From positions 1 to 24,845 of the IMG/VR virus record IMGVR_UViG_3300044614_001077: a stretch of DNA of 24,845 nucleotides. One strand, given 5' to 3'. A program made the position numbers and the translations under genes. Each line of letters starts with the position of its first letter. Positions within the stretch are counted from its first letter, which is position 1. Positions 1,299-24,845 of this stretch are shown here, one piece after another. The notes beneath the pieces are model-generated. The model ran no database searches. It had not been told where the DNA came from and worked only from the letters and a program-made list of their open reading frames with translations. Origin of the DNA: a virus.

Positions 1299-4200
1299 TT
1301 ATACTGCAGTTGCAATAGATCTAAAGTATTTAATCTGAGGAACTAATGCCTGATTTGGAGAAGATAGAACAACTTTGATTTGGAATTTAGTAAATTCTAA
1401 ACCAGACTTGTTATACTCATATGCCTTAAATACAAGATCATTTACTGGAGTAACTGGTCTATCTGGTCCACCATCAGTATTGAAGAATTCCCATAGAAGT
1501 GAATTCTCATCACCAGTAAATCCTACAGGAACTACACGATATAGAACTCGGATATTAGTATCATTTGGTCTATATGCATCGAACATTACTCTCAGTGATC
1601 TAGAAACTTGATTATCAAGTGAAATCATTCTAGTAATGTAGACTGCATCATGAGGATCACCTTCTGGTAATCTAGCTAGATCCCAATTATCTGGATTGTT
1701 GATGCGATTGGATGTAGTAATAATACTGCATCTATCAAGATCAATAACTGGAGATAATGTATCAGTTTCCGATTCCAAAATTAGTTCCATAGTAAATGAC
1801 TTTTCTCCAGACAACTTAGCATCTTCATTAATTTTTGATAAAATTAGAGATTGATTTGCTAAGATATTTGCATCATTTAGAGTCACATTCTCATAAGAGT
1901 TTGTATTTACAAATGATGGTTCTTGCTCAATAGCACCGATTGATGTTCCAGATACTCTATTAATTCTAGCATAAATTTGAGTTCCTGGTAAAACAACATT
2001 ATTGATATTTGGCGTAAGTACCTCAAATGGAACATTCTGAGAAGCAGTCGCAAATATTCCTCCAGACGAAATACCTACTGTAGCAACAGATGCTACAGTT
2101 ACATCGTATGAATCTAATGTTGGATTGATAATTGATGTATGAACTTTGTTAATTTGTGTTAGTGGAATTCCATCTAAGTTATAACACTCAACTGCAGAAC
2201 CAATTTCATGCGCTGCTGCTGTTGTTCCTCCTGCACCTCTTCCTGCAGTTGTTTTTACAGTGATTGTAAATCCATCTGTAGAAATATTAGTATATGCAAT
2301 AATTTCATCATCAATCTTAATGTATCCTGGATTATCTTCCCCATAAGTAAATCCACCAATCTTCTTATGGAATGCTCCAGCATCAGCAACAGTAATTGAA
2401 GTATCTGTAGCAGATATTGCTTGTCTTAGAGTTGTTGATGGGATTTCCGAAATTATGCCAGTAATTGCAACATTATTAGTGGTATCATGCATACCATGGT
2501 TGCTATGGAGAATAGTAATTTTCTTACTGGACTCTGGATATGTTGTAGTTGTTGATGGGAATTTTTGTAAAGAATCTCCAGAATATGTTGATGTATTTAC
2601 AATAGTTGAAACAGATGGATTTGTTTGGCTAATTGTTTCACCATCATCAAATTCCTTGGATACATAATTGACTTCTAGAACACCAGTTGAAACATTCCAT
2701 GATGTTACATAAGCTTTTGCTCCACTTGTCTGTCCAGTAATCAACTTACCAACTGTAAAGTTTCCAGTTAGAACACCAGCAGTTGTACTTACATTTAGGG
2801 TAGCAGTTGCCTGACTACTGATAATTGGGTAAACTACATTACCTCCAACATCAGTTCCCTGTAAGAATGATCCTTCAATATCAGTAATTGTAATTTTGTT
2901 TGGACTTGATACTGTATCTACAGAAACAATAGTTGCTGAAGCATTACTTGTATCTTGATAAATTCTAGCACCAAGAGTGAATTGTGCAGAAGCATCGTTT
3001 AGAGTAATGACCTGATTTGGTTTGTATGTAACGATTGGATTTTCTCTTAGTTTTAGAATACCCCTATTGCCAATATTCAACTCTGCATTATTGAGCACTA
3101 GTTTTCCTGATAAAGGACCAAACTTTGCTCTGTATAGAGTGAACTTGAGATCTTGTAGTTGGTTTGGAGACCAGGTAGAAGCGTTTTGTGACTTAAATAG
3201 GACACCAGCATAAGGTTGTTCTGAAATAGTTCTATCACCAGTAATATCAACCTGTCCCATTTCTGAGATCCAAACTTCATATTCATTTGAGTCTGTGAAT
3301 AGAACTATTGCATATTCCTGAGTCTCACTAATGTATACTGGAGCTGGGAACTTGAATGTGGTAGGAATGGATGCATTCTCAGATACTTCGACTTGATCTG
3401 GTGCAAGAACAGCAGTAGATAGTGGTAGAATTCTATTGCAAGGTACTCCATATTCCATCTCACGGATCTGAACGCTGATTGGAATATTTTGATCCTTCTT
3501 AGCAAAGAATAGATCAACAGAATCTAGATAAACACCACCTCTTTCCTCAATCATGAATGACTGTGCAAGAGGATCCCAGTAACCAATCTGAACTTGTTCT
3601 TGACGAGTTCTAGTTGTGGTTCTCTGCTCATTTAATTGATCTGTTACAATTTCAGCATTTCTGATCGATAGGATTGTTTCTTGTAGTGTTTCTAGAACAC
3701 CAGATGCATCATAATTTGTCTGAGCACTAGAACTATCAGTTGATCCAGGTAAAGCTCTTGAATCAGTTGAACTTACAGTTAATCTAAATAATCTTCTTCC
3801 AGTTGCCCAACGAGGATTAGTCGTTACGGATGCATTTGGAATAAAGAATGATCCCTTAAAGGTTCCAGTTCTATCGGTGATAATTCTCTTATCTCTTACA
3901 ATAGCAGTAGCTGATGATGTTTTACCAACTAATATAATACCAATTTCAATTTGACCGTAGTACTGTCCAGATACTTGCTCCGCTAACTTATTAGTATCGA
4001 TATTTAGATATTGAGTTTGAGAGGAATATACTTCTGGCAATTCTCCATCGGTATATGGATTCGATCTCAATCCATCGTTAGGTGCTACTACTTTTGCTGA
4101 GAAAATAGCAGAACCATCTCTTCTAGTAGTACCAGATACTAAGCGATATCCTTCAACTGTCTCTCCAATCTGGAATGGAATGTTATTTGTTCTTGAATCT

Positions 4201-7200
4201 TCTGCTGGATCCTTAATAAGTTCAATAAGTTTAGGTGTAGTGTATGAAGATACGGCAACATTATCAAAGAAACTATAATATCTTGTTAGTGGTTTGAGTT
4301 TTTCTGCAACAATAGAAATATTTCTAGATCTAATGAATGGAATATTTTGCTTATTAATTACTCTAGATCCTAAACTTCTTTGCTCAAAGGTTGCAACTAC
4401 TCTCTGTTGTGTTCCAGTTCTTCTTTCAAGAATACCAGTGGTAGTTGTAGTTCTAGTTCCAAATCCTGGAATATTTCTACCAAGAGGTCCTAACCATCCT
4501 CTCCACTCACCTCCACTAACAGTTGTTCTAGCACCAGACCAATCTTCTTGCCATGAACCCCATGAAATAGCACCAAAACCATTTTGATCTGCATTAATTA
4601 ATCTAGCCTGACTTTGGAAGTTACCTTCTACTTGTACTACATTTACTGGAGCAACATCAGTATCTACCCAATCATCGCTGCTTGGATTTAGTGTCAATAC
4701 ACCGATGAAACTGAAAACATTGAATGGGTTTACATTTTCAACCAACGATGCATATGGTTGAATGATTAGTGCTTCTCTTTGATATGGAAGAGTAATGATT
4801 CCAACATTTCTTGTGACATTGGATGATGAAGTCTCATTAGGAATTAGTGAAACATTAGTTGTGTAGTGAGATGCTCTAAGTGTTCTGCTATTGAAATCCA
4901 TGGAAGCAGAATAATCTGGATTATCAAGATCAGCAACATTCTGATTCTCAAACGAATCAACTAAGAAACCATTCTTAAACTTATCGTTGCCAAATTCATC
5001 TTTAATGACTAGTGAATTAGTATCCTGCTCAAGTAGGGTTAGTACACTATAGTATTCGATATTATGAACTCTCTTTTCTAGAGATGTAATATCTCTCATA
5101 GTATATCTCTTAATATCCTCTTGGAACACTAGGGAATCTACTTTAGGATTAAAACCATAAGCATTGTGTCCAATAATTGCTAAGAGAAGAGCATCATCTC
5201 TATCTTCTGGTGGAATTGGATTTTCTGCAGGAGTACCTAAAATAGTGAAGAATTTTCCGAGTTGATCAACAAATACTTTATCAATTCTCTTGACATAATG
5301 AGAATAATCCAATCTAAAATCGCTATCTGGTTTTGGTAAATCAAATACAGTTGAATTTGCTCCTTGAAATTCACGACTTACAAAATCCAATGACGAACAC
5401 TGTAGATAATATGGATTACTTACTGAACCAGCCCCATCGACTAATTGTTTTACAGCTGGTCTGAAATCTAGAACATCAGATAGTGGTTTTTTATTTGTGA
5501 TTGAACCAACAGAATATGTATAGATTGGAATTTCCTTGTAATCAATACCAACATAGGAATTGATATTGAAGTAGTCTCCAGTTGCTTCATGGGAGAAGAA
5601 GTCCACAACTACTTTCAATTTTCTAATAGGAGCAGCAGCACCTTTCTTTCTAACTAATTTAGAAATTCCATAATAATGATTTGTTTGACCAGACTCTAGA
5701 TAGAATGAACTGGTGATGTTTTTACTTCCTAGGTTAATTGAACCTTCTGCATCACTAATTAATCCTTGAATATTATTTCCTAGACTATTAACTCCAGTTA
5801 CGATTTCATTCTGGATGAACTTTTGATCTGTCTGGTATACAATTGAAAGTCTTAGTGAAGATGAGTTGAAATCAACCACTAATGCCTTTGCACCAGAAGT
5901 TCTTCCTGTAACAATAGATCCAGTAGCAAAGAAGGCAGATTCCACAAGAGTGACATATGGAATTATTGCTTCATTGTTATCAATTGACTCATAGACTGCA
6001 TGTAGTTTATAAGCGTCAGTAACTCCTAGAGAAATATCTTTATCTTCAATTCTAGTTCCGTATAGTGGACTATATGCTAATCCAAATGGAACTTGATCGC
6101 TTTGGTTTGATGATCTGCTTACTCTCCATACAGACATCTTGGTTGCATTTTTTACCTTTTGGAAAACAGCATTTTTAGAGATAGATGCATTTAATCTTAC
6201 TGCAGTAATACCTACTAGATTTCCAACTGTAATTGTAGTTCTTGGTACTCCACTAGTGTTAAATGTCGTGTATGCAGCGTTAGATGAATTAGTTGTCTGT
6301 AGAGTTAAGATCTCACCAATTGTGTAAGATGATCCTACTGACACTCCAGTAACAACTAGAGTATATGCTCTAGAATCAACTGCAGAAAACTGCTGAGTCT
6401 CTGGTAATGAAATAGTAAAACTGTTACTAGTAGTTTGAGCGTCAAAAGTCCTTCTGAGAATAAAACTTTCATCACTGATACTCTGAATAGCTTCTTTTGG
6501 TAATTCGATGAATAGATCATCTAGTTGAGTATCTTCGATCTTTGGTCTAAATCTAAAAATACTCGTAAATTGTTGACCATCAGTAGGCGTTACTACATCA
6601 AATCCAGCATCAGTTTCTACCGTTACTGAAATTGATTGTGTGTCATAATCAAATACAGTGCTTAGATCATAATTAGATGGCAATACTGCCACTGAAAAAT
6701 AATTTCCAGGAGCGAAGTATAATCTATCATATGGTCTAACTTCTAATGCAATATTACTATTGAATCCAATTAGGACATCATCACCGCTATCATATGTAAA
6801 TCTTGTTCCAGATAGTTGGAATGAATCATTAAACATTATATCACAACTAAATGCAACAGCATTTGATGAGTCTCTACCAATGAATTGTCTGACATCAGAG
6901 AATTGATAGTTATAAATTTTACTTACAGTTCCGACATCTCTACCATCAACTGAAATTACTTCCCCTTCTCTGAAATTGCCATTTACATTAATTAATTCTA
7001 AGTTGTCGGAAGTTACTGATAATGCACCTCCACTAACTCTAATAAAACCAGTTGCTCCAGATGATTTACCTACAATCTGAGATCCTGCTATGATAGTAGT
7101 AGAAGCACCTAGCTTAATTCTTGTGAATAGAGAAACATCAAATAGGAATGCTTTATATACATCATTCTCGTTTCCAGTTACACCATCAGAGGTGTCCTCT

Positions 7201-8546
7201 AGTTCCCAATTGGATATTCTTGCAAATCCAATAGTTGTTCCATTAGAAGATCCTGGGGTAGTATTCTCACGATCCTTCAATTCCACAATTTGGTAAGATG
7301 GTGAAATATTTGGTCCAGTAATTAAAGGTGTTCCGTAGACATTACTGACTAGAACATAGTTACCCAACTCAAATGGTACAATATTATTTTGTAACGATAC
7401 AAAGTTTCTAGGTTTAGGTACATCTAGATACTTTGGATTTGTTGATTGAATTGGATATCCTCTTAGATATGCTCTACCAGGAGATACTTGAACAGCATAA
7501 AGTGATTCTGACGCCTCTACTTTGGTGTCTTCTGTAATCTCCCCTGCATTATATACACCATCATTAAATCCATCATTTAGACACTCTCTTACCGTAATAT
7601 CAAATGGATCGATCATGAAATCGCCATTTGTATCAAATGTTCTTTTTGCTAGTTCTTTTTCTAGTTCACTATATGCTGTTCTTTCAACGAATGATTGTAC
7701 TTTTCCGTTTTCAATACGAATCAATTCAATGAAGTTTTTATCAGCGTCATCACCAATTTCTTTTTTGATTAATGTGGTGTTAATCTTAAATCTATGTGCT
7801 CCAGGTGCAGCATAGTTTGATGATCCAGCAGCATTATCATTTAGCGAATCATCATCTTCTGGTGTAATAATAGATTCAGATACTTCAAGACCAACTCTGA
7901 ATGATGGGTCTTTTGCATATTGATCTAGAATGATATATTGAGACTTTACATCTACAAAGTGACCTCTAATAAAATATACACCTGTGTTAACATAAGCAAC
8001 AGATGCAACTGCAGTTGCTTCATTAGGAATCATCTGAGCAAATGGACTTCCAATTTCTAACAGAGTTCCACCAAATGTGATTTCTTTATCTGCTAGTAAT
8101 TGTTCATTATCTAAGAATCTTAGAATATCGTTGTTTGTTCCACCAGCTTCAGTATACTTAACATATAGAGTAATAAAATTCCTATCAGACTCTTCTGCAG
8201 AAATTGAATATAATACTTTTGCCTTTACCCCAGTAGTAATACCAGTTATGGTTGTACCAGTTAATTGTGATCTGTATAGTTCTACTTCAGATCCAAGGAA
8301 ACTAGACTGTAGCAGAATGCAGTCTACATTGTTATCAAATCCAACTTGACCAGGGATGACCATGGAACCATCCTTGAAGAAATGGTTTCCCATGTTCTCG
8401 ATCTGATTCTGTAAGATCGATTGCATTGTAGTGAGTTCTCTTGCCTGAATCGGGAACCCAGGACGATAAAGAACCTTATAAAAGTTCTTAAACTTATCAA
8501 AATCATCATAATAAGGTGTTACATTTAAGTTGGTATTCTGGGGCAT
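1299..8546 (-). CDS. giant DUF4815 virion structural protein (2415 aa)
   Basis: The N-terminus (YYDDFDKFKNFYKVLYRPGFPIQARELT, given in parts: PYYDDFDKFKNFYKV, RPGFPIQAREL; then LQNQIENMGNHFFKDGSMV) is the hallmark of DUF4815, a domain found in large tail or baseplate proteins of marine T4-like phages; it fills roughly the first 550-600 residues. The middle has several GxxTSGAxAxV beta modules (near 7105-6950, 5930-5790, 3950-3860 and 2975-2590) and a motif IRSRNISIVAEKLKP..YSFFDNV (near 4330-4260). Around 3580-3100 is DPLAQSFM...GGVYLDSVDLFF...VQIREMEYG...PYAGVLFKSQN, another signature of this class. The C-terminus (about 1675-1302) is a beta domain ending IKYFRSIATAV. It has no membrane segment. 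It follows gp8 by 16 bases, the place of gp9/gp10 in T4, so a peripheral baseplate or fibre-attachment role is likely, but I see no gp9 or gp10 homology. GAG at about 8 bases before the ATG is a weak ribosome site. Confidence 0.88.
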   Translation of the reverse strand: MPQNTNLNVTPYYDDFDKFKNFYKVLYRPGFPIQARELTTMQSILQNQIENMGNHFFKDGSMVIPGQVGFDNNVDCILLQSSFLGSEVELYRSQLTGTTITGITTGVKAKVLYSISAEESDRNFITLYVKYTEAGGTNNDILRFLDNEQLLADKEITFGGTLLEIGSPFAQMIPNEATAVASVAYVNTGVYFIRGHFVDVKSQYIILDQYAKDPSFRVGLEVSESIITPEDDDSLNDNAAGSSNYAAPGAHRFKINTTLIKKEIGDDADKNFIELIRIENGKVQSFVERTAYSELEKELAKRTFDTNGDFMIDPFDITVRECLNDGFNDGVYNAGEITEDTKVEASESLYAVQVSPGRAYLRGYPIQSTNPKYLDVPKPRNFVSLQNNIVPFELGNYVLVSNVYGTPLITGPNISPSYQIVELKDRENTTPGSSNGTTIGFARISNWELEDTSDGVTGNENDVYKAFLFDVSLFTRIKLGASTTIIAGSQIVGKSSGATGFIRVSGGALSVTSDNLELINVNGNFREGEVISVDGRDVGTVSKIYNYQFSDVRQFIGRDSSNAVAFSCDIMFNDSFQLSGTRFTYDSGDDVLIGFNSNIALEVRPYDRLYFAPGNYFSVAVLPSNYDLSTVFDYDTQSISVTVETDAGFDVVTPTDGQQFTSIFRFRPKIEDTQLDDLFIELPKEAIQSISDESFILRRTFDAQTTSNSFTISLPETQQFSAVDSRAYTLVVTGVSVGSSYTIGEILTLQTTNSSNAAYTTFNTSGVPRTTITVGNLVGITAVRLNASISKNAVFQKVKNATKMSVWRVSRSSNQSDQVPFGLAYSPLYGTRIEDKDISLGVTDAYKLHAVYESIDNNEAIIPYVTLVESAFFATGSIVTGRTSGAKALVVDFNSSSLRLSIVYQTDQKFIQNEIVTGVNSLGNNIQGLISDAEGSINLGSKNITSSFYLESGQTNHYYGISKLVRKKGAAAPIRKLKVVVDFFSHEATGDYFNINSYVGIDYKEIPIYTYSVGSITNKKPLSDVLDFRPAVKQLVDGAGSVSNPYYLQCSSLDFVSREFQGANSTVFDLPKPDSDFRLDYSHYVKRIDKVFVDQLGKFFTILGTPAENPIPPEDRDDALLLAIIGHNAYGFNPKVDSLVFQEDIKRYTMRDITSLEKRVHNIEYYSVLTLLEQDTNSLVIKDEFGNDKFKNGFLVDSFENQNVADLDNPDYSASMDFNSRTLRASHYTTNVSLIPNETSSSNVTRNVGIITLPYQREALIIQPYASLVENVNPFNVFSFIGVLTLNPSSDDWVDTDVAPVNVVQVEGNFQSQARLINADQNGFGAISWGSWQEDWSGARTTVSGGEWRGWLGPLGRNIPGFGTRTTTTTGILERRTGTQQRVVATFEQRSLGSRVINKQNIPFIRSRNISIVAEKLKPLTRYYSFFDNVAVSSYTTPKLIELIKDPAEDSRTNNIPFQIGETVEGYRLVSGTTRRDGSAIFSAKVVAPNDGLRSNPYTDGELPEVYSSQTQYLNIDTNKLAEQVSGQYYGQIEIGIILVGKTSSATAIVRDKRIITDRTGTFKGSFFIPNASVTTNPRWATGRRLFRLTVSSTDSRALPGSTDSSSAQTNYDASGVLETLQETILSIRNAEIVTDQLNEQRTTTRTRQEQVQIGYWDPLAQSFMIEERGGVYLDSVDLFFAKKDQNIPISVQIREMEYGVPCNRILPLSTAVLAPDQVEVSENASIPTTFKFPAPVYISETQEYAIVLFTDSNEYEVWISEMGQVDITGDRTISEQPYAGVLFKSQNASTWSPNQLQDLKFTLYRAKFGPLSGKLVLNNAELNIGNRGILKLRENPIVTYKPNQVITLNDASAQFTLGARIYQDTSNASATIVSVDTVSSPNKITITDIEGSFLQGTDVGGNVVYPIISSQATATLNVSTTAGVLTGNFTVGKLITGQTSGAKAYVTSWNVSTGVLEVNYVSKEFDDGETISQTNPSVSTIVNTSTYSGDSLQKFPSTTTTYPESSKKITILHSNHGMHDTTNNVAITGIISEIPSTTLRQAISATDTSITVADAGAFHKKIGGFTYGEDNPGYIKIDDEIIAYTNISTDGFTITVKTTAGRGAGGTTAAAHEIGSAVECYNLDGIPLTQINKVHTSIINPTLDSYDVTVASVATVGISSGGIFATASQNVPFEVLTPNINNVVLPGTQIYARINRVSGTSIGAIEQEPSFVNTNSYENVTLNDANILANQSLILSKINEDAKLSGEKSFTMELILESETDTLSPVIDLDRCSIITTSNRINNPDNWDLARLPEGDPHDAVYITRMISLDNQVSRSLRVMFDAYRPNDTNIRVLYRVVPVGFTGDENSLLWEFFNTDGGPDRPVTPVNDLVFKAYEYNKSGLEFTKFQIKVVLSSPNQALVPQIKYFRSIATAV

Positions 8547-12273: not shown

Positions 12274-12281
12274 TATTTATG
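12274..12281 (-). promoter_or_regulatory. late promoter CATAAATA overlapping the subtilase stop codon
   Basis: On the minus strand CA-TAA-ATA contains the stop codon (12279-12277) of the protease gene. It fits the NATAAATA form of T4-like late promoter. A start near 12268 would give a leader of about 17 bases for the 702-residue gene. Confidence 0.6.
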
Positions 12282-13938
12282 ATACCTTTCTTCTTTGTAT
12301 TGCAACTCTAGGATAGGTCATTCCAGAAGATTGTCTTACGCTATAATTAAATTTTGGATTTGCTACTCCAGTTTCTGGCCTATCTTTTTTGTAGTATGCG
12401 TATCTATTATTTGATGTGTTGCCTAGGGAAATATAGTCTCCAGCATTACCTCCAGTTGTAGAGATTTGACCAATTTTAGATGCACTGAATATATAATCTC
12501 TTGCAATAGTTTGATTTATATTTGGTAATTGCTCTGCTAAGCAAGCAAGTAATCCTGCTACTTGAGGACTTGACATACTGGTTCCAGATATTGAACCAAT
12601 TTTATATGAAGATGATCTTGGATCATTTGCTAGTATAATGCTAAATTCTGCTGCAGCAGTAGCATCATATACAGAAGACACAATATTTGATCCTGGAGCA
12701 TATAAATCTACTCTACTTCCATAGTTACTAAAAGTTGATTTATATTCTTGTGAAGTAGTTCCAATACTTCCAACACAAATACTATTTCCTGCAGCAGTTG
12801 GGGAAGATCCTCTACTGTGGAATATTTGTTGTCCAGATACAATGATAAAATTATCCCAATCTTGCATACTGCTAGTGGCACAATTCCAATAAGAATTTCC
12901 AGCAGAACCAACAATAATTACGCCATCATTAATTGCATCTTGAACATCAGCATCTAATGCAGCATATCTAGCAGGTATTTGATACAAATAATTATTAAAT
13001 GGAACTGGAACACCATTCTCTTCTAATGCCTGTTTCTTTACTGTATTAGATAATCCTGATAGTGTTGTAACAGTAGATCTGTACATTACTTGAAATATAT
13101 CAGCAAGTTGATAATTTGTTGTATATGAGTATCCCCAACTATTATTAACTACTGTTGGATTTCTTCTGCCAGTATTAGCATTTACATCTTTGTTTTTATG
13201 CCAATGTCTAATATAATCAAATATCACTAGCGCCCAATCTGAACCACCATAGTTACCACCTTGATAATTAAATTCCATGTTAAAGATTTTAGAATCTCTT
13301 GCCCATCCTTGAGTATTCCCAGCAACAGTTCCAGCAACATGAGTTCCATGGTTACTGCTTATGTTGGAATAATTATATGTTCCAGTAGTAGAAATACCAA
13401 GTATAGAACTATACTGAAACCAATCAATTTGATTTACTCTGGTTCCACCAGTGCCATCATCATTTATTGCAAATTCTGGATGTGATGGATTTATGTGGGC
13501 ATCTACAATTACTACATCTACATTTTTGCCAGAGCTAGTTGTCTTTATATTTGCAGACCTTTGAGTAAATGCACTATTTGTACCCCATCCAGCAGCCTGT
13601 CCACCTTCAGTTATTCGGAGTAACCCCCAATTTTTATCAGAAGAATCAATTGTCGAATTCTTCTCAAATACTCCAGTTTGTGTCCAGAATGGTGTTACAC
13701 TAAGTCCTAGTTCACTTGGTAGTAATTCTACAGCAAGAACTCTAGGATCATTCCTTAGAGATTCTGCTTCTTGCTCCGTCAAACTATAATGAGTATTTCT
13801 ACTTATATCTCTTCTCAACTTGCAAGAAACTTTTCTATTGGGAATATATAAATCCCCACCAGGAGTTTCCATATCATCATAAAATTGCTCTAGATCATCA
13901 AATTTTTTTAATGTAACTACATATATACTTTTCATCAT
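12277..13938 (-). CDS. subtilisin-like serine protease (S8) with I9-like propeptide
   Basis: The 553-residue protein has an intact subtilase core: Asp146 in VVIVDAHINPSHPEF, His197 in SSNHGTHVAGTVAG, oxyanion Asn348 in VGSAGNS, and nucleophile Ser454 in GTSMSSPQVAG. The Asp motif is DAH instead of the usual DTG or DSG. Residues about 3-75 (SIYVVTLKK ... LTEQEAESLRNDPRVLAVELLP) resemble an inhibitor I9 propeptide, so it may be made as a zymogen. There is no signal peptide and no membrane segment, unlike secreted subtilases. The C-terminal 100 residues carry no domain I know. The first ATG (13938) forms an ATGA overlap with the fibre gene; the second ATG (13935) is 4 bases from the GAGG at 13943-13940 and may be the true start. 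It lies among virion genes, so it probably acts in virion maturation or is carried in the tail to cut host surface protein; neither is shown. Confidence 0.9.
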   Translation of the reverse strand: MMKSIYVVTLKKFDDLEQFYDDMETPGGDLYIPNRKVSCKLRRDISRNTHYSLTEQEAESLRNDPRVLAVELLPSELGLSVTPFWTQTGVFEKNSTIDSSDKNWGLLRITEGGQAAGWGTNSAFTQRSANIKTTSSGKNVDVVIVDAHINPSHPEFAINDDGTGGTRVNQIDWFQYSSILGISTTGTYNYSNISSNHGTHVAGTVAGNTQGWARDSKIFNMEFNYQGGNYGGSDWALVIFDYIRHWHKNKDVNANTGRRNPTVVNNSWGYSYTTNYQLADIFQVMYRSTVTTLSGLSNTVKKQALEENGVPVPFNNYLYQIPARYAALDADVQDAINDGVIIVGSAGNSYWNCATSSMQDWDNFIIVSGQQIFHSRGSSPTAAGNSICVGSIGTTSQEYKSTFSNYGSRVDLYAPGSNIVSSVYDATAAAEFSIILANDPRSSSYKIGSISGTSMSSPQVAGLLACLAEQLPNINQTIARDYIFSASKIGQISTTGGNAGDYISLGNTSNNRYAYYKKDRPETGVANPKFNYSVRQSSGMTYPRVAIQRRKVS

Positions 13939-15100: not shown

Positions 15101-15108
15101 TATTTATG
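15101..15108 (-). promoter_or_regulatory. late promoter CATAAATA overlapping the giant-gene stop codon
   Basis: On the minus strand CA-TAA-ATA contains the stop codon (15106-15104) of the giant gene and fits the NATAAATA late-promoter form. A start near 15095 would give a leader of about 18 bases that still carries AGGAG for the fibre gene. Confidence 0.62.
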
Positions 15109-18100
15109 AAGCATCAAAAGTTATAAATGATAAATCAAATGTGGTAGCAGATGAATCAAATGATCCTTGCGTTTCTTCAGGATCTGGAATTTCTGTTAGA
15201 ATTTCAATTTCTGGATATAAGTATCCAATTCCAGCATCTATAACATCAACTCTAGAAATACCAACTTGTGCCTTTACTTGTCCATCAAAACCAGTTGGTG
15301 AACTTAATGAAACTACAGGAGTTGAGGTATAACCCTCTCCGCCAGAAGTTAACTGTACAGTTCTAATTCTTCCTCTAATTAGATTTGCTAATGCTTCACC
15401 ATTTCTTCCAAAGACCGAACCAAGATAATCAAATGTGATCAATGAGTTTGATGATTCGACAATAGCAACAGTTCTATCTCTATCTTCAGATTCAATTTCA
15501 AGTTGGTCTCCAGATTCAATTGGTGGAATTACTGTAGCAGCAATAACATCAGCATCAGATCCAATATACGAGTATGCAACAAAGGTACTACCAGCACGAG
15601 GAACTTCCGCAAAGTTGATTCTTGAACCAACAATCTCAAATGCTACTCCTGGTTCTTGAATAACTCCATTTAATGATACAATGATATTATTTTCTGGTCT
15701 AATATTTGTAGACTGAACTCCATCTGTAATTGTTAATGAATAGAATACTTCATTTAATTTTAAGTTGAAGCTGCTTCTTAGTGAGTCAAACTCGAATGAA
15801 ATATCATCTAGTTTTCTCAATTTACCAACATAAGTTCCGTGGAAAGTTGCTCCTAATTCTGGTGCCTCTAAGAATTCAATAACATCACTGAATGTATTAT
15901 ATGATACTCCAGCTGGTTGTAGAATACCATTAATGTAAACTAGAACATAACCATCAGAATCTGGGAAGTATGAGATTCCATTATTAGATGTCAACTTAAA
16001 TGTTGTTTGTGTGCCATCAAAACCTCTGAAGGATCTTGAAATTCTACCAACAACTTCTTTAACAGTGACAATACCAGATCTATAATCATTAGACACTAAC
16101 TGAGAATACTGTGTAAATGTTCCCTTAACGCCACTCAAATATAATCTATAGTTTGATCCAATTTGGAGAATTCTTTCAACATATCCGTATGCAATTTCGG
16201 ACTGTACAGAAACAGATTCTACACTTGCGAATCCACTTGGATACTGTTCGGAACCAGCAAAATATGCAATAGTTTCTCCAACCTCAAAATTATCATCATC
16301 TAGTAAATTGGAGATGTATAGATATTTTTGACCTCCATTCTGCTCATACTTGAGTAAAACTGCTTCTTTTCCTTGAGGAATATTGTCCGTAACATTAACA
16401 ATCTTTTCCCCAACCACAAATGTCGTAGATTCTTCATTTGGAAGATCTATCGTTAAACGATATACATTTGTAGTTTTTACAAGACTACCAATAGATACCT
16501 GAGTTCCTTCATAACCTAAAGTATCAATATAGATGTCACTCGTCGAAGAATATACTACATTAGATACATGGAATTTATCATTAAGTGATTCAGTATCTAG
16601 TACTAACTTACCACCAGAAGTATCAAGTACTGGAGATGTTGTTCTTTCATATAGAGATACCGTGGATTCGGAATCAGATTTTGGTGCTCTGATGTAATCT
16701 CCAGTGGAGAAACTTCCAAGGACATTCTTAAGTTGAACTCTATTATCAATAGAAACTATAGTTGCAGTGAAATTATCTTCATTTAAGAGAACATTGTTCA
16801 CATTAAATGGACCGCTTTGGATTGCAACATCAATATAGTTAATAGTTTCGGAATAGTATACCGAATATACCTTACAAATTCTTGATGGTTGACCTAAAAC
16901 TGTAAGTTCCTGATTAATATCGAATGTTTCTACTGCTTCAGCAAAGTTAACTCTAAATCTCTTTAGAATAGTTTTTACATCTGCTCTATTGATAATGATT
17001 GATGAAATCTCACCATATTCCTGAGAAGTTGTGCCATAGATATAATCTCCTTCAGTAATACCACCCTTAACTGGAGTTATTGGATCTCTAGTTGGATATA
17101 CAATAGAAGGAATTACAATTGAATTTTCTGGAACAATAGCATTATCATCAATATATGATGAATTATTTAATGTTCCTAATAGTATGCTCATATTATCATC
17201 AATAAATGACTGCATACTGGTCAAATTGCCCCCAGTTATTGAAATTGCAGAGTCTGTATATGAATAGAAACCAGCAGCACTAGAAGGAGATTGTAAAGTT
17301 TCTGCAACTGCTTGCTTCATCAAATCTCTAACTTGCTGGTATGCATAAATGCTCTGAATTAATTCTCCCTGTAGTGAAGTTACAGTTCCAGTTGCAGCAT
17401 CAATATATGCAACAGTAGATTCGTAAATTCCACTATTGCCATCTGTTAATAGATCATATACAATAGCATCAACAATATATCCAATGTCTCTTATGCACTT
17501 AGCATTTCCACCTGGGATTGAGAATCCTGGATAATTGTTAAGTGTTCTCTGAATAGTTTCATTCTGAATATACAACTTATTAAACATAATAAGTTTAGCA
17601 GCATCTCTCTTCACCTGTGTAGTTGGGATGAGAATATCAATTGCCTTTTGGAATAGAACATCAATCGCTGATTTAATATCTGCACATCCACCACCATATG
17701 TTCCATCATCTAATATAATTGTTAGATCCTTATATTTTGATGTTGTTATTCCATATAGTGAAGCATATTCTGTAGTTCCAGTAACAATCCAATTGTTAAC
17801 TGCATATTGGCAAAGTTCATTTGCCTTTTCCATTGCAACTACAGTAGGTAGAAGTTCATTCTTGATATACTCGATGTTATCATCGGATCCAACATAGAAC
17901 TTCATTGCATTGATAGTATTAACATCTCCTCCAGATACTAGATCTGAAATAATAGATGGTAAAATATACTGTACCAGATCTCTCTTACATGTTGCAGAAG
18001 AACCACCAGGATAGTTAAATGCCTTATACTGAACTCCATTTAGGGTATAAGTAAATTGACTATCAATATGAGCGATAGTCTCATCAGCAATGAAGTTTCT

Positions 18101-21100
18101 ATTGAACCAGATTAGATCACCAGCATCTCTATAAACATTTCCTGTAGGTGCAATCGTGTCATTAATGGAATTCCATAATGTGTCAATCTGAGCACGAACA
18201 TCAGCACAGTCTCCAAGATCAATTGTGATATCAACTGGAGGAATTGGGAATCTTTCAGTGTATTCTGGAGTTTCACTCAATTGACCAATTACTGCTTGCT
18301 GACAAAGTTCATTCATTTGAGTGTGGGTATAAACACTCTGGAGGACTTGTCTCTCAATAAATCTTAGACCACCATTACTATCAAGATAGAATCTTGCAGC
18401 AGTGATTGACTCATAGTTTCCACCATTTTCAATATCAGAAATTACAGCTTGTAGTAGTAGTGATAAATCTAATTTACATCTATTTGTTCCTTCGGTAGAT
18501 GATGCGCTATCTCCAGGTATAACTAGATCTGGATAACGATTTTTTAGTCTACCTGCTGCCTCATCGATAATATAAGCAGAATTTAGTCTTAGTAGATTTG
18601 CAGCATCTCTAAATCTGTGTTGAGCATCAGAGTAGATTTGATCAGTAGTAATAATTTTATCAGAAGTATCAATTTGCTTGACAACAAATGGAATAGCGAA
18701 ATATGTCGATACTTTTGCTGTTATTGAGTTATAAGAAATATTCTCTCCGACTATAAAGTTTCCAGTCTTATCTCCAACATAAATTGTTTTTAATGCATAA
18801 TTGACACCAATAATGTCTGCTGATACTCCACTAATTGATCCAAGTATAGTATTTCCTATTTGGAAATTACCTCCACTCAAATCATAATATGTTAGTTTTC
18901 TAACCTCAATAGACTCATCTTCACTAAAATCGTCAGTTTCATTTCTATATTCTACTTTAATATTTTGTACAAATTCTCCTTGTAGTAACTCTGCAGTTGG
19001 ATTTGTGTAATTTAACAGTGTATTCTGAATTTCCTCAAAGTCCACAAATGTACTTTCTACCTTGATATCAGAATCATCAATATCAACTACTTCAGCAACA
19101 CTTCTACTAATATCATCAACAATAGTATTTGGATTTGATGGATTTACGATTCTGTTGAATAGTAAACCATAGAATCTACTTGGGTCACTGATGGATACTG
19201 AAGATACTGGATCAATCTTAATACTGGTTAAGATCTTATGGTTCGCTGTTGAAGTTTGACCAATAATGATCTCATTTGCTACAAAAGTTCCAGAAATTGA
19301 ACTTAGAATGAGTCTCTTGATTTGTGGATTCCAAAATACAACTTCTCCAACTGCAGATGATGTTGATCCAACAACTTCTTCTCCGATTTGGAAATCACCA
19401 ACGAATGAGTAATCTGAATTGATTACGATGTATACATTAGGATCTGTGTATGGAGCTAGTGATATAACTTTGGCAACAATTCCAGTTTGTGCTGAAATTA
19501 TAAAGTCATCAATATCAATGTTTAGTAGTCCAGAAGGAGAATCATAAGTACCAGAAGTTTTGCTAATGACAATTTTATTTGTTATTACATTTGACTGTGG
19601 TTCTAAATTAATTTCTTCTACTACTGCAGTTTGCTTACTTAAGTTAGTAAGTTTTTCTTGGAATCTGTATATATTGCTGTTAATAATAGATTCAACAGAG
19701 ACTATGTTTGCATTTAATCCAGTTGCAGGTGATATTACAGTTTCTGTATTTAAGAAGGTTCCCTGAATATTGAATACTGTTAGTGTGGTTGATGTTGAAG
19801 AAACAACCGTCGCTGTTGCATTAGATACAAGACCTCTAATAGTATTTCCAAGTTCTGGGATAATGCCACTAATATTATTAATTGTTATTAATTTTGTTTC
19901 CTCAAACTGAAGTTCAACCTCTGCATAACTAATTTTGGTTGGTGCAGGAGGTGGCTCACTGAAGATGATATTTCCTTGCTGAACATTAAATGAACTTCCA
20001 GGTGCCTGAACAACTCCATTTATGGTAATCATAAATTGACTTGTCTGTGCAACAACAATATTTCCATCAATTGTTAGTGGGAAAATTCTTCTTTCTCCAT
20101 CAAACAGAGTGGAAATATCATCCAATTTCTGAACAACAGATGTTAGAATTTCCTCAGAAGATGTTAGTCTCTTATTTCTGAACAGAACTTGAGTATTATC
20201 AAATTCACTGTAGATTGGTTCTGCTAGAGCAAAGTTATCTATGTGAGAAACTACAGAACTCTCAATTAGATTTACACTCTTGACTAACTCAAAGTCTGTT
20301 TTATTAGTTAATCCCTTGTTCTCTCCAGTAACTCCAATTTCACCAAAAATCTTAAATCCAGCTGGGTGTACATTATCAATTACGATATTTTTCCATTCTT
20401 CAATAGAGATAGGACTCTTAATATTATATGAGAACGCTTGGTATAGGTAAGAGTCTTGAACTCTTTGTACAATTTCACTTGGTTTGCCAACATCATCTAG
20501 GAATTTGCCAGTTGTTTTTGTAATAGAATCAACTTCTAGAATACCTCTAGCAATACTAATATCACCAATAGTACCACTTGCCTTAGAAATTGATCCAGTT
20601 ACATTTTGACCAATCTCAAAATCACCACTATAGTCAACTAATTTGAGTAGTCTTGGACCAATTTGCCATCCATCATTATTTGATACTATTCCAATTGCAG
20701 TTGCATTATCGATGTTTAGACCCTGGAATACTGTTTCTCCAGATAGGAATCTTGCAGTTTCTAGTACAGATTCTGCCTTACCACCGAAGGAATCTGTTAG
20801 AATGATCTGTCTTCCAGTACCATTATTAACAAATGAGATAAAGTTTCCAGTTTCTGCATCAACTGGTGTTAGTGCAATACGAAGCTGGTCATCTTCTAAA
20901 CCAGATGTTGTACCAGAAATTGCATAGTAAGTCTGATTTGGATTGATGAAACCGAATGATGTTAGTGGGAAGTCAGCACCTTCTCCAAGGTCTCTGATAT
21001 CAAACTTAACCTCAGCACCATTTGGAATTCCATGTGGGAATGCAAACTGGAATAACTGTAGGTCAATGTTTACAACATATGTGAAACTAGACTTTAATTC

Positions 21101-24100
21101 GACAGTTGGTTCTGTTGTATATCCAGATCCAGGATTCTTAATTACAATAGCATTAATTCTACCATTTCTTAGGATTGCTTCTGCAATTGCACCAGTTCCT
21201 CCACCACCAGTAATTACAACTTCTGGAGGTGAAGTATATCCAGTACCAGGATCAATCACCTTGATGCTGCTTAATACGCTAGTACTTGTTAACTGTAGAT
21301 TAACTGGGAATGTGATTTCTGGTCTTAATGTATAGTCATGAGTATAATCAAAACCAAAGTTGTTGTTCTTTAGTCTCTTAATTTTACCAACACTACTTCC
21401 CTTAACAAAAATAGAAGCACCAGTTCCTCTTGGTGGAATTACTACTCGTAACTCAGCACCAGATCCAGTTAGTTGTGGACCAAGAATACCAGGAATTGCA
21501 TCAATATCAATAAATGCTGTAGTATATCCTTTTCCTGGATCAGTTACAATAACTTCAACAATTTGACCTGCAGGATCTGTACTTCCATCTACTGTAATTC
21601 TTACTTTTCCTCCAGCTCCATCTCCAGAAATTGGAACTCCAAAGTATTCCCCTGCTTCATATTCTGTTCCAGGATCTATAATTTCTACTCTTTCAATCTT
21701 TCTGGAAGATTCAATATCGGTAATGATAGGTAGTTTTTTATAGAAACCACCACCATTAATGAGTCTAATAGAACCGATAGAACCTACTGCCTTTTTAGAT
21801 GTGGTGGTATATGAAGATAATGCTGCAACTGCTGCCTTCTCTGGCTCAAATTTGATTGGGAAAATCAATTGATTTGCACCAGTTGTAATAGTTGCACCTC
21901 CAAGTTCCTTAACCTCAAATGTACCAATATAAGGACTTGGTAGAACATCAATGTAAGAATTATCTCCAACAGGACTTTCAGATCCAATTCTTGCTGGGTC
22001 TGCATAGTAACTGATATTTGATACATCGTCAGTTACCTTAAATGAAATGAATGGAGAGTTTCCTGGCTCATCTATACCTGGAGTTCCTTTTCTAACAATA
22101 TTCTTGAAAGTATATTCAATTTTGTTTAGATTATCTCTGTAGAAAGATAAGAAGTGTCCTAGGTTTGATGGATCAGATGTATCAAAGGTATACTGCTGTC
22201 CATAAATTAATCTAATGATAGGATGCTTGACATAAACACTAAACGATGTTCCAGATCCAATAACTGAAGATGGTGATGTCTTAATGCTGAAAATAAATTC
22301 TTTCTTATTAAGAACACTACTTACATAGTAAGTACCATCAGTATTGGAATATTCAGGTGATGATTGTAGAGAAATAATATCTCCAATATTCAAGTAATGT
22401 GATGTAGCAGATCTTACAAATAATTGATCAGTATTTGCTGATGTGTTAATTTGCAATACTTTCTTCAGATTTGTAGTTAATGTAATTTGAGTTACTGCGG
22501 TTAGTCCTGAAATAGTTAATTGCTTCTTATCAGAACTAAATGAGAAGAATGAACTTCCAAGGATATATACAGATCCTCTAGAGTATGAAGATCCAGAAAT
22601 AACTTCATCAACTCTTACTTGATAATCATCATCCGAATAATCCTTAAAGATTGCAGATAATCCTACAGGAATATCAAAGACAAATGTTCCTGGAGTAGTA
22701 GCATCTTCATTAGCAAAGATGTATTTTGGTATCTCATTTACAGCATTATCGGATGTCTCTAATGATCCGCTGCTATTGACAAAAGTACCATTAACAGAAG
22801 AAATTAGTATCTGATTATCTTGTGGAATTACATCAATAATTTTTGCTGTTGCAATAGAGACATTAGATGAATTCTTTTGAGTAAGAGTCGTTCCTTTTGT
22901 AAAATTAAATTCCTGATTCAATGTTAGTCTTCTTACATTATCAACTTTAGATGTTGCGAATGTTCTAAAGAAGAATTTATCATACGACTTAGCAGATAGA
23001 ATTGGTTTTCTTCCTCCAGGGGAAGGAATAGTTGCAGTTCTAGTTGACCAAGTATCAAGAGTGGATACTATAGTTTGTGTATTTTGATCTAAGAACGATA
23101 ATACATCAGTAAAGTCTAATACTTGGAATCCTTCATTAGCTAAGATATAATTAGAAATATTTGTTTCTAATGCAATATTATTAAGTGTATATAATGTTCT
23201 GGAAATTTCTAGATTTGCATTTGTGAATTGAATATCACCAAGTCTGACTGAATCTGAGTTTTTGTCTAGTTTAATAGAGTATGATTTTGCAGTTCCATGG
23301 TCATATGGAGTTAATGCTGCTGATGGAACAGATGATGGTCCAGAATATGTAATAGAGTAATTACTATATCTAATTTCATCAACTCTCATGGGCCAAGAAG
23401 AATATGATGTAGTAGATCCAAACTCAATTGTAGTTGGATTCATATCTACACTTTCACTTATGGTTGCAATTTGCGTACCATTCCAAATTAATTTATATGT
23501 TGTAATTCCACTAGAGAACTCTTTCTTTAACGCAACATGGACCCATCCAGATGTTAAATCTGTAATATAAGTAGATGCAGCAGTAAGTTGTGAAATTGAT
23601 GCTGCATCATTACTTAATCTAACTTTTCCGTATGTGGATGGAGAACTAGTATCTGCAAATACAGCAACTCTTACCCCATTAGTTCCATTGGTGCATCTAA
23701 TTAATAGTGGAACTTTTGCAGTAGCTGCAGTATCCCACTTAATCCATTTTTCTAGAGTCCAGGATGAAGATGCAATACTTGTGGTTATTGACATCTTAGC
23801 ACTTTGACTCATATTATAAGCATATGTTCCATACTTAGAGGTTGTTCCAATAGAAACAGTTCCTGAAGTTACAATATTAGAAACTCTACCCAATCTATCT
23901 ACATAATCAGATCCATCGAATAAGAATTGAGTTCTATTTGGATAGTATCTTCCAGTTATAGTTGGATCTCCAGATACATCAGACACACATGACACTACAT
24001 CGTATCCATATGAATAATCTGTTGTTTCAATCTTATTTGATTTAATTACATTACCAAGATAGTTGATCTTTGAGATAATTACATATTTCGCATTATTTGC

Positions 24101-24845
24101 ATCTGTTATAGAACATGCAATATTGATCTCTCCAAATACATCAATAGATGTTTTTGCTGTCTGTAATGTTTGTGCTTGAGATATAGTATATGAATTTGCC
24201 CACTTGATTTCACCATCAGATAGGAGTCTTAGAACAGAAACTTTATTTTTGGTATTTGATGAGATTGTTCTTTGAGTTGCAGTAATATACAACTCATCAT
24301 ATTCATCAATAATAAGCGTTAGATCCTCGAAGTCACTATCAAGTGCCCCATAGGTCTTTGCCCAATCTACGACAATTTTATTAGCAATAATATTTGCTTT
24401 TGATATGTAAATGCTTGTAGATGACTTACCTAAGAGATATATTTCATTCTTTGAGTTTACTTTAATCTGGAAGAACTTATCTTCTGTTGAGGGGGAAGTG
24501 ATCTTTCTTCTAGTTAATGTATCTCCATTAGATGCAATGTACATAACTATTGCATCATTAGTGTGATTAGTGTTTGTTGATGTATAACCACAAATTAGAA
24601 TATTTCCATTGTAGATTGTGATGTCTGTAGCATAATCTCCTCTACTTGCACCACTAATACCACCATATTGCCTTTGCCAATTAATAGTGGATGAAGTTCC
24701 AGAAGAATTTTCTGTTAATTTGACAACAATGATATCTGGGTTAAATGAATTTGATAGTATTGGATTTGGTCTAGTAGTACCAATTATGTAAATTGAGTTG
24801 CCATCCTTAGCAATACCATTAAATACGCAATTCTTAGTTTCTTGA
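15104..24845 (-). CDS. giant modular virion protein, 5' end beyond window (at least 3246 aa visible)
   Basis: The frame is open from the stop at 15106-15104 to the window edge. The ATG at 24544 is not the start: 100 sense codons of the same repeat pattern continue upstream (including IYIIGTT, INWQRQYGG and ILICGYTS). In order the protein shows: propeller-like blades (24844 to about 23960); a LamG/concanavalin-like domain (about 23930-23300); beta modules including YTFDTSDPSNLGHFL near 22200; Gly-rich GxGY modules (about 21770-21080); an HGIPNGAEV module near 21050; an FDG...INGVVQAPG module (20110-19900); GExVxG-type modules (20630-18700); three Cys-bearing helical repeats (18610-17160); more GExVxG-type modules (17060-16240); two INGxxQxPG modules (16050-15560); and GxGY modules at the end. 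I see no gp7 homology, though T4 gp7 lies next to gp8. It is probably a large baseplate or side-fibre protein that meets the host; the exact location is inferred. Confidence 0.88.
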   Translation of the reverse strand, partial: QETKNCVFNGIAKDGNSIYIIGTTRPNPILSNSFNPDIIVVKLTENSSGTSSTINWQRQYGGISGASRGDYATDITIYNGNILICGYTSTNTNHTNDAIVMYIASNGDTLTRRKITSPSTEDKFFQIKVNSKNEIYLLGKSSTSIYISKANIIANKIVVDWAKTYGALDSDFEDLTLIIDEYDELYITATQRTISSNTKNKVSVLRLLSDGEIKWANSYTISQAQTLQTAKTSIDVFGEINIACSITDANNAKYVIISKINYLGNVIKSNKIETTDYSYGYDVVSCVSDVSGDPTITGRYYPNRTQFLFDGSDYVDRLGRVSNIVTSGTVSIGTTSKYGTYAYNMSQSAKMSITTSIASSSWTLEKWIKWDTAATAKVPLLIRCTNGTNGVRVAVFADTSSPSTYGKVRLSNDAASISQLTAASTYITDLTSGWVHVALKKEFSSGITTYKLIWNGTQIATISESVDMNPTTIEFGSTTSYSSWPMRVDEIRYSNYSITYSGPSSVPSAALTPYDHGTAKSYSIKLDKNSDSVRLGDIQFTNANLEISRTLYTLNNIALETNISNYILANEGFQVLDFTDVLSFLDQNTQTIVSTLDTWSTRTATIPSPGGRKPILSAKSYDKFFFRTFATSKVDNVRRLTLNQEFNFTKGTTLTQKNSSNVSIATAKIIDVIPQDNQILISSVNGTFVNSSGSLETSDNAVNEIPKYIFANEDATTPGTFVFDIPVGLSAIFKDYSDDDYQVRVDEVISGSSYSRGSVYILGSSFFSFSSDKKQLTISGLTAVTQITLTTNLKKVLQINTSANTDQLFVRSATSHYLNIGDIISLQSSPEYSNTDGTYYVSSVLNKKEFIFSIKTSPSSVIGSGTSFSVYVKHPIIRLIYGQQYTFDTSDPSNLGHFLSFYRDNLNKIEYTFKNIVRKGTPGIDEPGNSPFISFKVTDDVSNISYYADPARIGSESPVGDNSYIDVLPSPYIGTFEVKELGGATITTGANQLIFPIKFEPEKAAVAALSSYTTTSKKAVGSIGSIRLINGGGFYKKLPIITDIESSRKIERVEIIDPGTEYEAGEYFGVPISGDGAGGKVRITVDGSTDPAGQIVEVIVTDPGKGYTTAFIDIDAIPGILGPQLTGSGAELRVVIPPRGTGASIFVKGSSVGKIKRLKNNNFGFDYTHDYTLRPEITFPVNLQLTSTSVLSSIKVIDPGTGYTSPPEVVITGGGGTGAIAEAILRNGRINAIVIKNPGSGYTTEPTVELKSSFTYVVNIDLQLFQFAFPHGIPNGAEVKFDIRDLGEGADFPLTSFGFINPNQTYYAISGTTSGLEDDQLRIALTPVDAETGNFISFVNNGTGRQIILTDSFGGKAESVLETARFLSGETVFQGLNIDNATAIGIVSNNDGWQIGPRLLKLVDYSGDFEIGQNVTGSISKASGTIGDISIARGILEVDSITKTTGKFLDDVGKPSEIVQRVQDSYLYQAFSYNIKSPISIEEWKNIVIDNVHPAGFKIFGEIGVTGENKGLTNKTDFELVKSVNLIESSVVSHIDNFALAEPIYSEFDNTQVLFRNKRLTSSEEILTSVVQKLDDISTLFDGERRIFPLTIDGNIVVAQTSQFMITINGVVQAPGSSFNVQQGNIIFSEPPPAPTKISYAEVELQFEETKLITINNISGIIPELGNTIRGLVSNATATVVSSTSTTLTVFNIQGTFLNTETVISPATGLNANIVSVESIINSNIYRFQEKLTNLSKQTAVVEEINLEPQSNVITNKIVISKTSGTYDSPSGLLNIDIDDFIISAQTGIVAKVISLAPYTDPNVYIVINSDYSFVGDFQIGEEVVGSTSSAVGEVVFWNPQIKRLILSSISGTFVANEIIIGQTSTANHKILTSIKIDPVSSVSISDPSRFYGLLFNRIVNPSNPNTIVDDISRSVAEVVDIDDSDIKVESTFVDFEEIQNTLLNYTNPTAELLQGEFVQNIKVEYRNETDDFSEDESIEVRKLTYYDLSGGNFQIGNTILGSISGVSADIIGVNYALKTIYVGDKTGNFIVGENISYNSITAKVSTYFAIPFVVKQIDTSDKIITTDQIYSDAQHRFRDAANLLRLNSAYIIDEAAGRLKNRYPDLVIPGDSASSTEGTNRCKLDLSLLLQAVISDIENGGNYESITAARFYLDSNGGLRFIERQVLQSVYTHTQMNELCQQAVIGQLSETPEYTERFPIPPVDITIDLGDCADVRAQIDTLWNSINDTIAPTGNVYRDAGDLIWFNRNFIADETIAHIDSQFTYTLNGVQYKAFNYPGGSSATCKRDLVQYILPSIISDLVSGGDVNTINAMKFYVGSDDNIEYIKNELLPTVVAMEKANELCQYAVNNWIVTGTTEYASLYGITTSKYKDLTIILDDGTYGGGCADIKSAIDVLFQKAIDILIPTTQVKRDAAKLIMFNKLYIQNETIQRTLNNYPGFSIPGGNAKCIRDIGYIVDAIVYDLLTDGNSGIYESTVAYIDAATGTVTSLQGELIQSIYAYQQVRDLMKQAVAETLQSPSSAAGFYSYTDSAISITGGNLTSMQSFIDDNMSILLGTLNNSSYIDDNAIVPENSIVIPSIVYPTRDPITPVKGGITEGDYIYGTTSQEYGEISSIIINRADVKTILKRFRVNFAEAVETFDINQELTVLGQPSRICKVYSVYYSETINYIDVAIQSGPFNVNNVLLNEDNFTATIVSIDNRVQLKNVLGSFSTGDYIRAPKSDSESTVSLYERTTSPVLDTSGGKLVLDTESLNDKFHVSNVVYSSTSDIYIDTLGYEGTQVSIGSLVKTTNVYRLTIDLPNEESTTFVVGEKIVNVTDNIPQGKEAVLLKYEQNGGQKYLYISNLLDDDNFEVGETIAYFAGSEQYPSGFASVESVSVQSEIAYGYVERILQIGSNYRLYLSGVKGTFTQYSQLVSNDYRSGIVTVKEVVGRISRSFRGFDGTQTTFKLTSNNGISYFPDSDGYVLVYINGILQPAGVSYNTFSDVIEFLEAPELGATFHGTYVGKLRKLDDISFEFDSLRSSFNLKLNEVFYSLTITDGVQSTNIRPENNIIVSLNGVIQEPGVAFEIVGSRINFAEVPRAGSTFVAYSYIGSDADVIAATVIPPIESGDQLEIESEDRDRTVAIVESSNSLITFDYLGSVFGRNGEALANLIRGRIRTVQLTSGGEGYTSTPVVSLSSPTGFDGQVKAQVGISRVDVIDAGIGYLYPEIEILTEIPDPEETQGSFDSSATTFDLSFITFDAS
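15560..16050 (-). repeat. two INGxxQxPG beta modules in the giant protein
   Basis: Two tandem copies: FDGTQTTFKLTS...VLVYINGILQPAGVSY...IEFLEAPELGATF and FDSLRSSFNLKL...NIIVSLNGVIQEPGVAF...INFAEVPRAGSTF. A third copy lies at about 20110-19900 (FDGERRIFPLTI...FMITINGVVQAPGSSF...IIFSEPP). Confidence 0.75.
17160..18610 (-). repeat. three tandem alpha-helical repeats in the giant protein
   Basis: Each repeat starts RDA(A/G).L(L/I)..N..(Y/F)I..E (first base of the Arg codon at 18610, 18130 and 17608; periods 160 and 174 residues). It then has PG....C..D(L/I)...(I/L).(A/S)I..D(L/I)..G and ends with the GxCAD(V/I)..(A)IDxL(W/F) block followed by (A/I)PT. Copies 1 and 2 have three cysteines each (RCKLD or TCKRD, ELCQ, DCAD or GCAD); copy 3 keeps only the first (KCIRD). 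Confidence 0.8.
21400..21660 (-). other. Gly-rich module of the giant protein shared with gp8
   Basis: It reads GTEYEAGEYFGVPISGDGAG, then GGKVRITVDG, GKGYTTAFIDID and LRVVIPPRGTG. The same order and near-identical motifs occur in the first insert of gp8 (9453-9203). Confidence 0.75.
23300..23930 (-). other. LamG/concanavalin A-like lectin domain in the giant protein
   Basis: The segment begins FLFDGSDYVD and contains SWTLEKWIKWD, PLLIRCTNG, GWVHVALKKE, TYKLIWNGTQIAT and MRVDEIRYSN, the usual order of landmarks in LamG-type jelly-roll lectin domains (about 200 residues). This fold commonly binds glycans, but binding is not shown here. Confidence 0.75.
23960..24844 (-). other. propeller-like (SBBP-type) repeats in the giant protein
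   Basis: About five units of roughly 50 residues follow the pattern (N/D)..IYIIG.T....(D)..V.K....G.I.W...YG...D.(A)..I. Examples are GNSIYIIGTT, INWQRQYGG, NILICGYTS, NEIYLLGKS, VDWAKTYGA, DELYITATQ and IKWANSYT. The array continues past the window edge. Confidence 0.6.

Follow-up and report, generated by a model that had tools for sequence, protein, structure and literature searches.

The end of a 24,845-base virus record (the whole stretch of DNA analysed here, hereafter the window) encodes, on its minus strand, a segment that structure prediction and structure comparison show to be a seven-bladed beta-propeller carrying a LamG/ConA-like fold between strands B and C of its last blade. The segment corresponds to residues 1-520 of an open reading frame (15104..24844, minus strand) that is open at its 5' end and encodes 3,246 visible amino acids of a giant protein of the baseplate cluster, which matches phrog_701 (virion structural protein). 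An overlapping environmental IMG/VR contig, L007, was used to extend this frame upstream; it is 100% identical to the window giant in protein sequence over the query, with five differences in 7,563 overlapping nucleotides. L007 carries the frame up to a start codon, so that residue 1 of the window frame becomes residue 1896 of a giant which, counted in this way, has about 5,140 amino acids; the same gene in 20 sequenced relatives encodes 5,422-7,876. The propeller-LamG module lies at about residues 1826-2440 of the full protein (L007 numbering), and the 'N-terminal part' to which the original prediction had assigned it is therefore N-terminal with respect to the visible end only.

The Kyanoviridae rank with the most abundant oceanic phages, and host binding by marine T4-like cyanophages is poorly resolved. 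A lectin-in-propeller module that is separable, common and has exact borders is a tangible target for expression and testing. Propellers in baseplates and LamG domains in phages are each known from earlier work; among the matches listed, no title or abstract in the literature on cyanophage baseplates, on adsorption and host range, on LamG/ConA-like domains or on phage propellers describes the nested module.

Anatomy of the propeller and its nested domain

AlphaFold2 was given L007 residues 1800-2520 together with 41 aligned non-redundant environmental sequences, and returned a model (pLDDT 85.8, pTM 0.84) whose strand list splits into seven blades of four strands each, closing into a ring. The window ends short of blade 1 and of the N-terminal strand that closes the ring, both of which are encoded at L007 nucleotides ~5791-5986. 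Within the window, all on the minus strand, the model places blade 2 at 24659..24829 (model residues 102-158), blade 3 at 24500..24637 (166-211), blade 4 at 24347..24481 (218-262), blade 5 at 24185..24337 (266-316), blade 6 at 24026..24169 (322-369) and strands A and B of blade 7 at 23936..24010 (375-399). Strands B and C of blade 7 are set apart by a distinct jelly roll of about 212 residues, the LamG/ConA-like domain (23297..23932, minus strand), which is supported by PF13385, by a model of the domain alone and by structure matches; strand C follows at 23258..23296 (minus strand; model strand 616-621) and bears a conserved K-x-D motif. The fourth strand of blade 7 is taken, from the predicted strand list, to be the N-terminal strand 27-40.

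The original prediction had described, at 23300-24845, about five propeller-like units followed by a LamG-type lectin. Five is right for the visible part, where blades 2-6 are complete and blade 7 is split, and extension upstream with L007 recovers blade 1 and the closing strand and brings the count to seven. The order of the two folds has to be revised, as in the AlphaFold2 model the LamG domain, instead of coming after the propeller, is inserted into blade 7, the last part of which, strand C, lies outside the interval originally described.

When the propeller was compared with solved propellers in VIA-align, the 50 matches listed gave Z 24.8-32.3 over 273-356 aligned residues and included CylK, streptogramin B lyase and G-beta. 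All 50 of the superpositions listed extend to model residue 622 or further, which would be unexpected unless the strand after the lectin belonged to the ring. Both of the folds originally foreseen, propeller and jelly roll, are thus returned by structure prediction. At the level of sequence, SBBP repeats (PF06739) were found in three of six homologues (best E 3.6e-5), DUF5122 was the sole match of the L007 member (E 0.0042, below the cut-off), and the module alignment, searched against PDB sequences, matched nothing.

The nested domain scores 26.8 bits against PF13385 (E 7.1e-8, single-record search), and the whole giant protein 22.3 bits (E 1.5e-4). Both scores fall short of the curated cut-off of 27.6 bits, and the domain is for this reason described by its fold, as a divergent relative of the family rather than as a PF13385 member; the same profile matches three of six homologues (best E 9.8e-7). 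Folded alone, the domain gave pLDDT 87.7 and pTM 0.86, and this model superposes on domain 4 of AbnA with Z 19.9 (5hp6) and on the lectin domains of trans-sialidases with Z about 19. Its closest structure matches are domain 4 of AbnA, for which one entry (5hon) was deposited with an arabino-oligosaccharide, and the lectin domains of sialidases, while the tailspike of the cyanopodophage Pan3 (9vyh) stands at Foldseek rank 6 (E 2.9e-8). The domain as modelled has the ConA-like jelly-roll fold, and the LamG-like domain that had been read from the sequence proves to be real.

Distribution, divergence and association with the host

The propeller part was found in 292 of 50,697 phage records, all of them cyanophages by name. 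The conserved core upstream of it (L007 residues 801-1658) was found in 460 records, 296 of these with at least 80% coverage, and comparison of the totals indicates that the propeller occurs about as often as the full-length core. A tblastn search with LamG alone recovered three records only, a result of sequence divergence and not of absence: an insert of 213-349 amino acids stands at the same position of blade 7 in 21 of 21 Kyanoviridae giants, and an insert is present in all 74 environmental loci that span this position (among the best 80 of 264 IMG/VR loci). Its occurrence in every giant and in every spanning locus marks it as a fixed, fast-diverging part of the architecture. A mobile or optional LamG module was considered and rejected on the same counts.

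The environmental alignment, drawn from the best 80 of the 264 IMG/VR loci, kept 71 together with L007. It left out L009 (from the same contig as L007), L017, L036 and L026 (contains X), as well as the partial loci L054, L057, L071, L076 and L079, which were restored for the insert count; L054, L071 and L079 end within the insert. In L057 the LamG domain appears to hold a further insert of ~80 amino acids with a GSGY repeat similar to those in other parts of the giant, one insertion inside another, and the blade-7 insert of S-CAM22 measures 349 amino acids. A relative from Syn30 is already annotated as a 'LamG-like jellyroll fold domain-containing protein'.

Divergence is unevenly spread along the protein. 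Averaged over 20 isolates, identity with L007 drops from about 60% in the core (residues 641-1660) to 31% in blades 1-6; the two halves of blade 7 stand at 37% each and the segment just after the propeller at 38%. LamG, at 23%, is the most diverged segment, as the original prediction of raised divergence had it. LamG identity is lower than propeller identity in 91% of 210 pairs, and lower than core identity in all of them. Median dN/dS was 0.16 for the core, 0.27 for the propeller, 0.33 for LamG and 0.28 for the segment after the propeller, over 1,342 pairs that share sequences and are hence non-independent, with dS near saturation; the set comprised 80 sequences, with P-TIM40, S-SZBM1 and P-RSM6 left out. 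LamG dN/dS exceeds 1 in 28 of these non-independent, near-saturated pairs. LamG evolves faster than the core, yet its median dN/dS is that of purifying selection. The propeller is not alone in changing fast, since the segment after it has nearly the same dN/dS. Hypervariability or strong positive selection of LamG is unsupported at a median of 0.33. Among S-RIM8 records there is almost no variation (99.8-100% in 16 records).

Pairs of isolates from the same host have LamG identities above expectation when core identity is used as covariate (P 0.013, linear; nominal), and the effect holds at P 0.003-0.008 when quadratic terms and the propeller or post-propeller segment are added (18-19 isolates; nominal). 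When the test is restricted to the 13 isolates of the larger clade the effect weakens to P 0.08-0.10, and the propeller has no clear same-host effect (P 0.10-0.43). The test took 19 of the 21 giants, L007 and S-CAM22 being without a strain; the larger-clade version also leaves out S-CREM1, S-H38, S-SZBM1, P-TIM40 and P-RSM6, and the host of ACG-2014d was read from the isolate name, for which reason the tests were also run without it. The host of isolation is a poor proxy, and phylogenetic non-independence remains in the P values. With isolation host as the proxy and kinship still present in the comparison, the link between LamG and host is suggestive only.

The S-RIM8 isolates A.HR1, A.HR3 and A.HR5 (source 'chemostat'), which we take to be the coevolution isolates of an earlier RIM8 study, with HR presumably denoting host range, show zero differences over positions 48500-72000 of their records, a stretch that covers the gene. 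A host link of the kind that had been forecast is only suggested for LamG by the tests across all clades (P 0.003-0.013); it weakens in the larger clade, and the A.HR isolates speak against it. PMC9910659 describes an analysis of three isolates from a single chemostat that did not point to any tail-fibre gene. The same paper relates that S-PM2d underwent changes in large proteins while coexisting with its host, and that two coevolution studies disagree on the involvement of fibre genes.

Baseplate context and other features of the giant

The giant gene is placed between gp6 and gp9/gp10-like genes, and 11 of 13 giant N-terminal regions match PF23786 (Baseplate_wedge), so that its location beside baseplate genes, as first described, is supported. 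Gene context and PF23786 together suggest that the giant is a part of the baseplate in the virion. The giant of S-SM1 (SSM1_102) is tagged T4-GC969, a cluster that PMC3037559 reports from purified S-SM1 virions, in which 41 proteins were detected, and at least the S-SM1 giant is therefore a virion protein. The name gp7 is used by some annotators for the giant and by others for another gene; a profile of the first ~1,825 giant residues, searched for T4 gp7 homology, matched no PDB chain at E<=1, and phmmer against the PDB with the neighbouring 702-residue protein gave one chance-level match only. A YHYH domain (PF14240) occurs in 13 of 13 giants scanned (best E 9.9e-33), at residues 1369-1534 of the L007 protein, outside the window.

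Downstream of the module, the giant contains three tandem helical repeats (about 17225-18637, minus strand; visible residues ~2070-2540). PF00502 (Phycobilisome) matches this region in two stretches (E 6.8e-12, above the cut-off), and in a phmmer search of the PDB 25 of 27 matches were phycocyanin chains (best E 3.8e-4). The motif AKCIRDIGY lines up with AKCARDIGY, a segment of phycocyanin alpha that contains the bilin-binding cysteine. PF00502 was also matched in the giants of S-CREM1 (4.2e-14), S-H38 (1.3e-14) and S-RIM2 (2e-6), and was absent from the P-TIM40 giant in the profile scan; a plain pattern search, with the chance rate uncontrolled, found C-x-[RKLQ]-D in 14 of 20 isolates. The helical repeats may be folds of the phycobiliprotein type that a phage baseplate protein has captured, and a literature search found no publication on a phycobilisome domain in a cyanophage.

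Additional LamG domains occur in the variable C-terminal parts of the giants of S-RIM2 (L006; residues ~4158-4304, PF13385 E 4.6e-35) and P-TIM40 (L004; residues ~4967-5090, PF13385 E 1.4e-14). The baseplate cluster of the window also includes a gene for a subtilase-family peptidase (12277-13938, minus strand; PF00082 E 7.3e-28), and a peptidase is annotated at the equivalent position in S-CREM1 and S-H38. A second giant of 2,415 amino acids (1299-8546, minus strand) matches DUF4815 (E 1.3e-59) and phrog_358.

Possible roles and known counterparts

The best reading of the propeller-LamG module, to which we would give about an even chance, is that it makes putative contact with glycans of the host. 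The conserved wedge regions would hold the propeller in place as a stiff base, with LamG jutting from one of the propeller faces, and several copies around the baseplate could engage in weak multivalent contacts with host-surface glycans, whether LPS or another envelope sugar. Such contacts may help to seat the baseplate, or to commit it, once the fibres have found the cell. The module would then be a host-contact surface apart from the tail fibres, and, instead of a hypervariable host-range switch, one whose slow divergence follows lineage and host. We infer the exposure of LamG, its candidate glycan binding, its multivalency and its part in seating or committing the baseplate. The interpretation given in the original prediction is plausible and partly supported, in its folds, its baseplate-gene context and its raised divergence; a second receptor-binding apparatus, with recognition of LPS by a putative lectin, would be a candidate function.

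The main rival to glycan binding is a structural role, which we consider a serious possibility. Propeller and LamG would on this account serve in protein-protein interaction, bracing the giant against other baseplate proteins or fibre proteins, and divergence would reflect weakly constrained surface loops of LamG that co-evolve with partner proteins. LamG folds also act as plain protein-protein modules, and the presence of the insert in every giant examined, purifying selection with a smooth gradient from core through propeller to LamG, the segment adjoining the propeller that changes as fast as the propeller itself, the identity of the A.HR isolates and the near-uniformity of the 16 S-RIM8 records are all in keeping with a structural part. 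It is less easily reconciled with divergence that peaks within LamG while both flanking halves of blade 7 are better kept, with nearest structural relatives that are carbohydrate-binding or lectin domains, and with a same-host effect, albeit weak, that is confined to LamG.

Catalysis seems unlikely. A propeller that degrades polysaccharide or is otherwise enzymatic, with LamG as its carbohydrate-binding module in the manner of sialidases and AbnA, would fit the high Foldseek ranks that CylK, sialidases and GH43 enzymes reach when the whole model is searched. For the sialidases and GH43 enzymes, however, the rmsd of the alignments is about 16-23 Å, and their lectin domains are matched by LamG on its own, so that it may be LamG that drives these matches. 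The VIA-align matches of the propeller are moreover WD40-type proteins, a lyase and CylK, and point to no single enzyme class. That the whole module is an artefact of chance or composition without a defined fold is hardly credible: a LamG Pfam score slightly below the curated cut-off would fit such a view, which is refuted by confident models, structure matches at Z 20-32 and conservation across many records.

A wider and more tentative picture can be drawn, one that we regard as possible though doubtful as a whole. The giant might be a composite host-sensing surface, in which a propeller showing a lectin from its last blade forms a fixed second host-contact apparatus of the Kyanoviridae, the lectin diverges with host, and some members add further LamG domains and phycobiliprotein-like repeats.

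Several known systems share parts of this design. Sialidases, trans-sialidase and AbnA join a propeller to a jelly roll, which has the fold seen in LamG. These are enzymes with other blade numbers, whereas the giant has seven blades and holds its lectin inside blade 7. The Pan3 tailspike (9vyh) is likewise a phage protein with a fold that matches LamG, but it is a podovirus tailspike that superposes with an rmsd of 5.7 Å at 15% identity to LamG. A further system is gp131 of the Pseudomonas phage PhiKZ, whose gp131C is a seven-bladed propeller (PDB 4GBF) in a protein at the periphery of a myophage baseplate, with a receptor-binding or cell-degrading role suggested and unconfirmed; the likeness is one of description, and the excerpt available of that account mentions no nested lectin (PMC4901313). 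The receptor-binding protein Gp45 of the Staphylococcus phage phi11 also has a propeller in a baseplate-attached protein, with the last blade closed by an N-terminal strand, but it is a dedicated, trimeric receptor-binding protein of five blades followed by tower domains, and the same excerpt makes no mention of a nested LamG (PMC4901313). Counterparts are also found in the other Kyanoviridae giants, those of S-RIM2, Syn33, S-SM1, S-CREM1 and Syn30 among them, which have the same propeller with its insert and, where records were fetched, the same gene neighbourhood as the window giant, and differ in LamG identities that fall to about 17-23% in distant members and in variable C-terminal parts, some with extra LamG domains.
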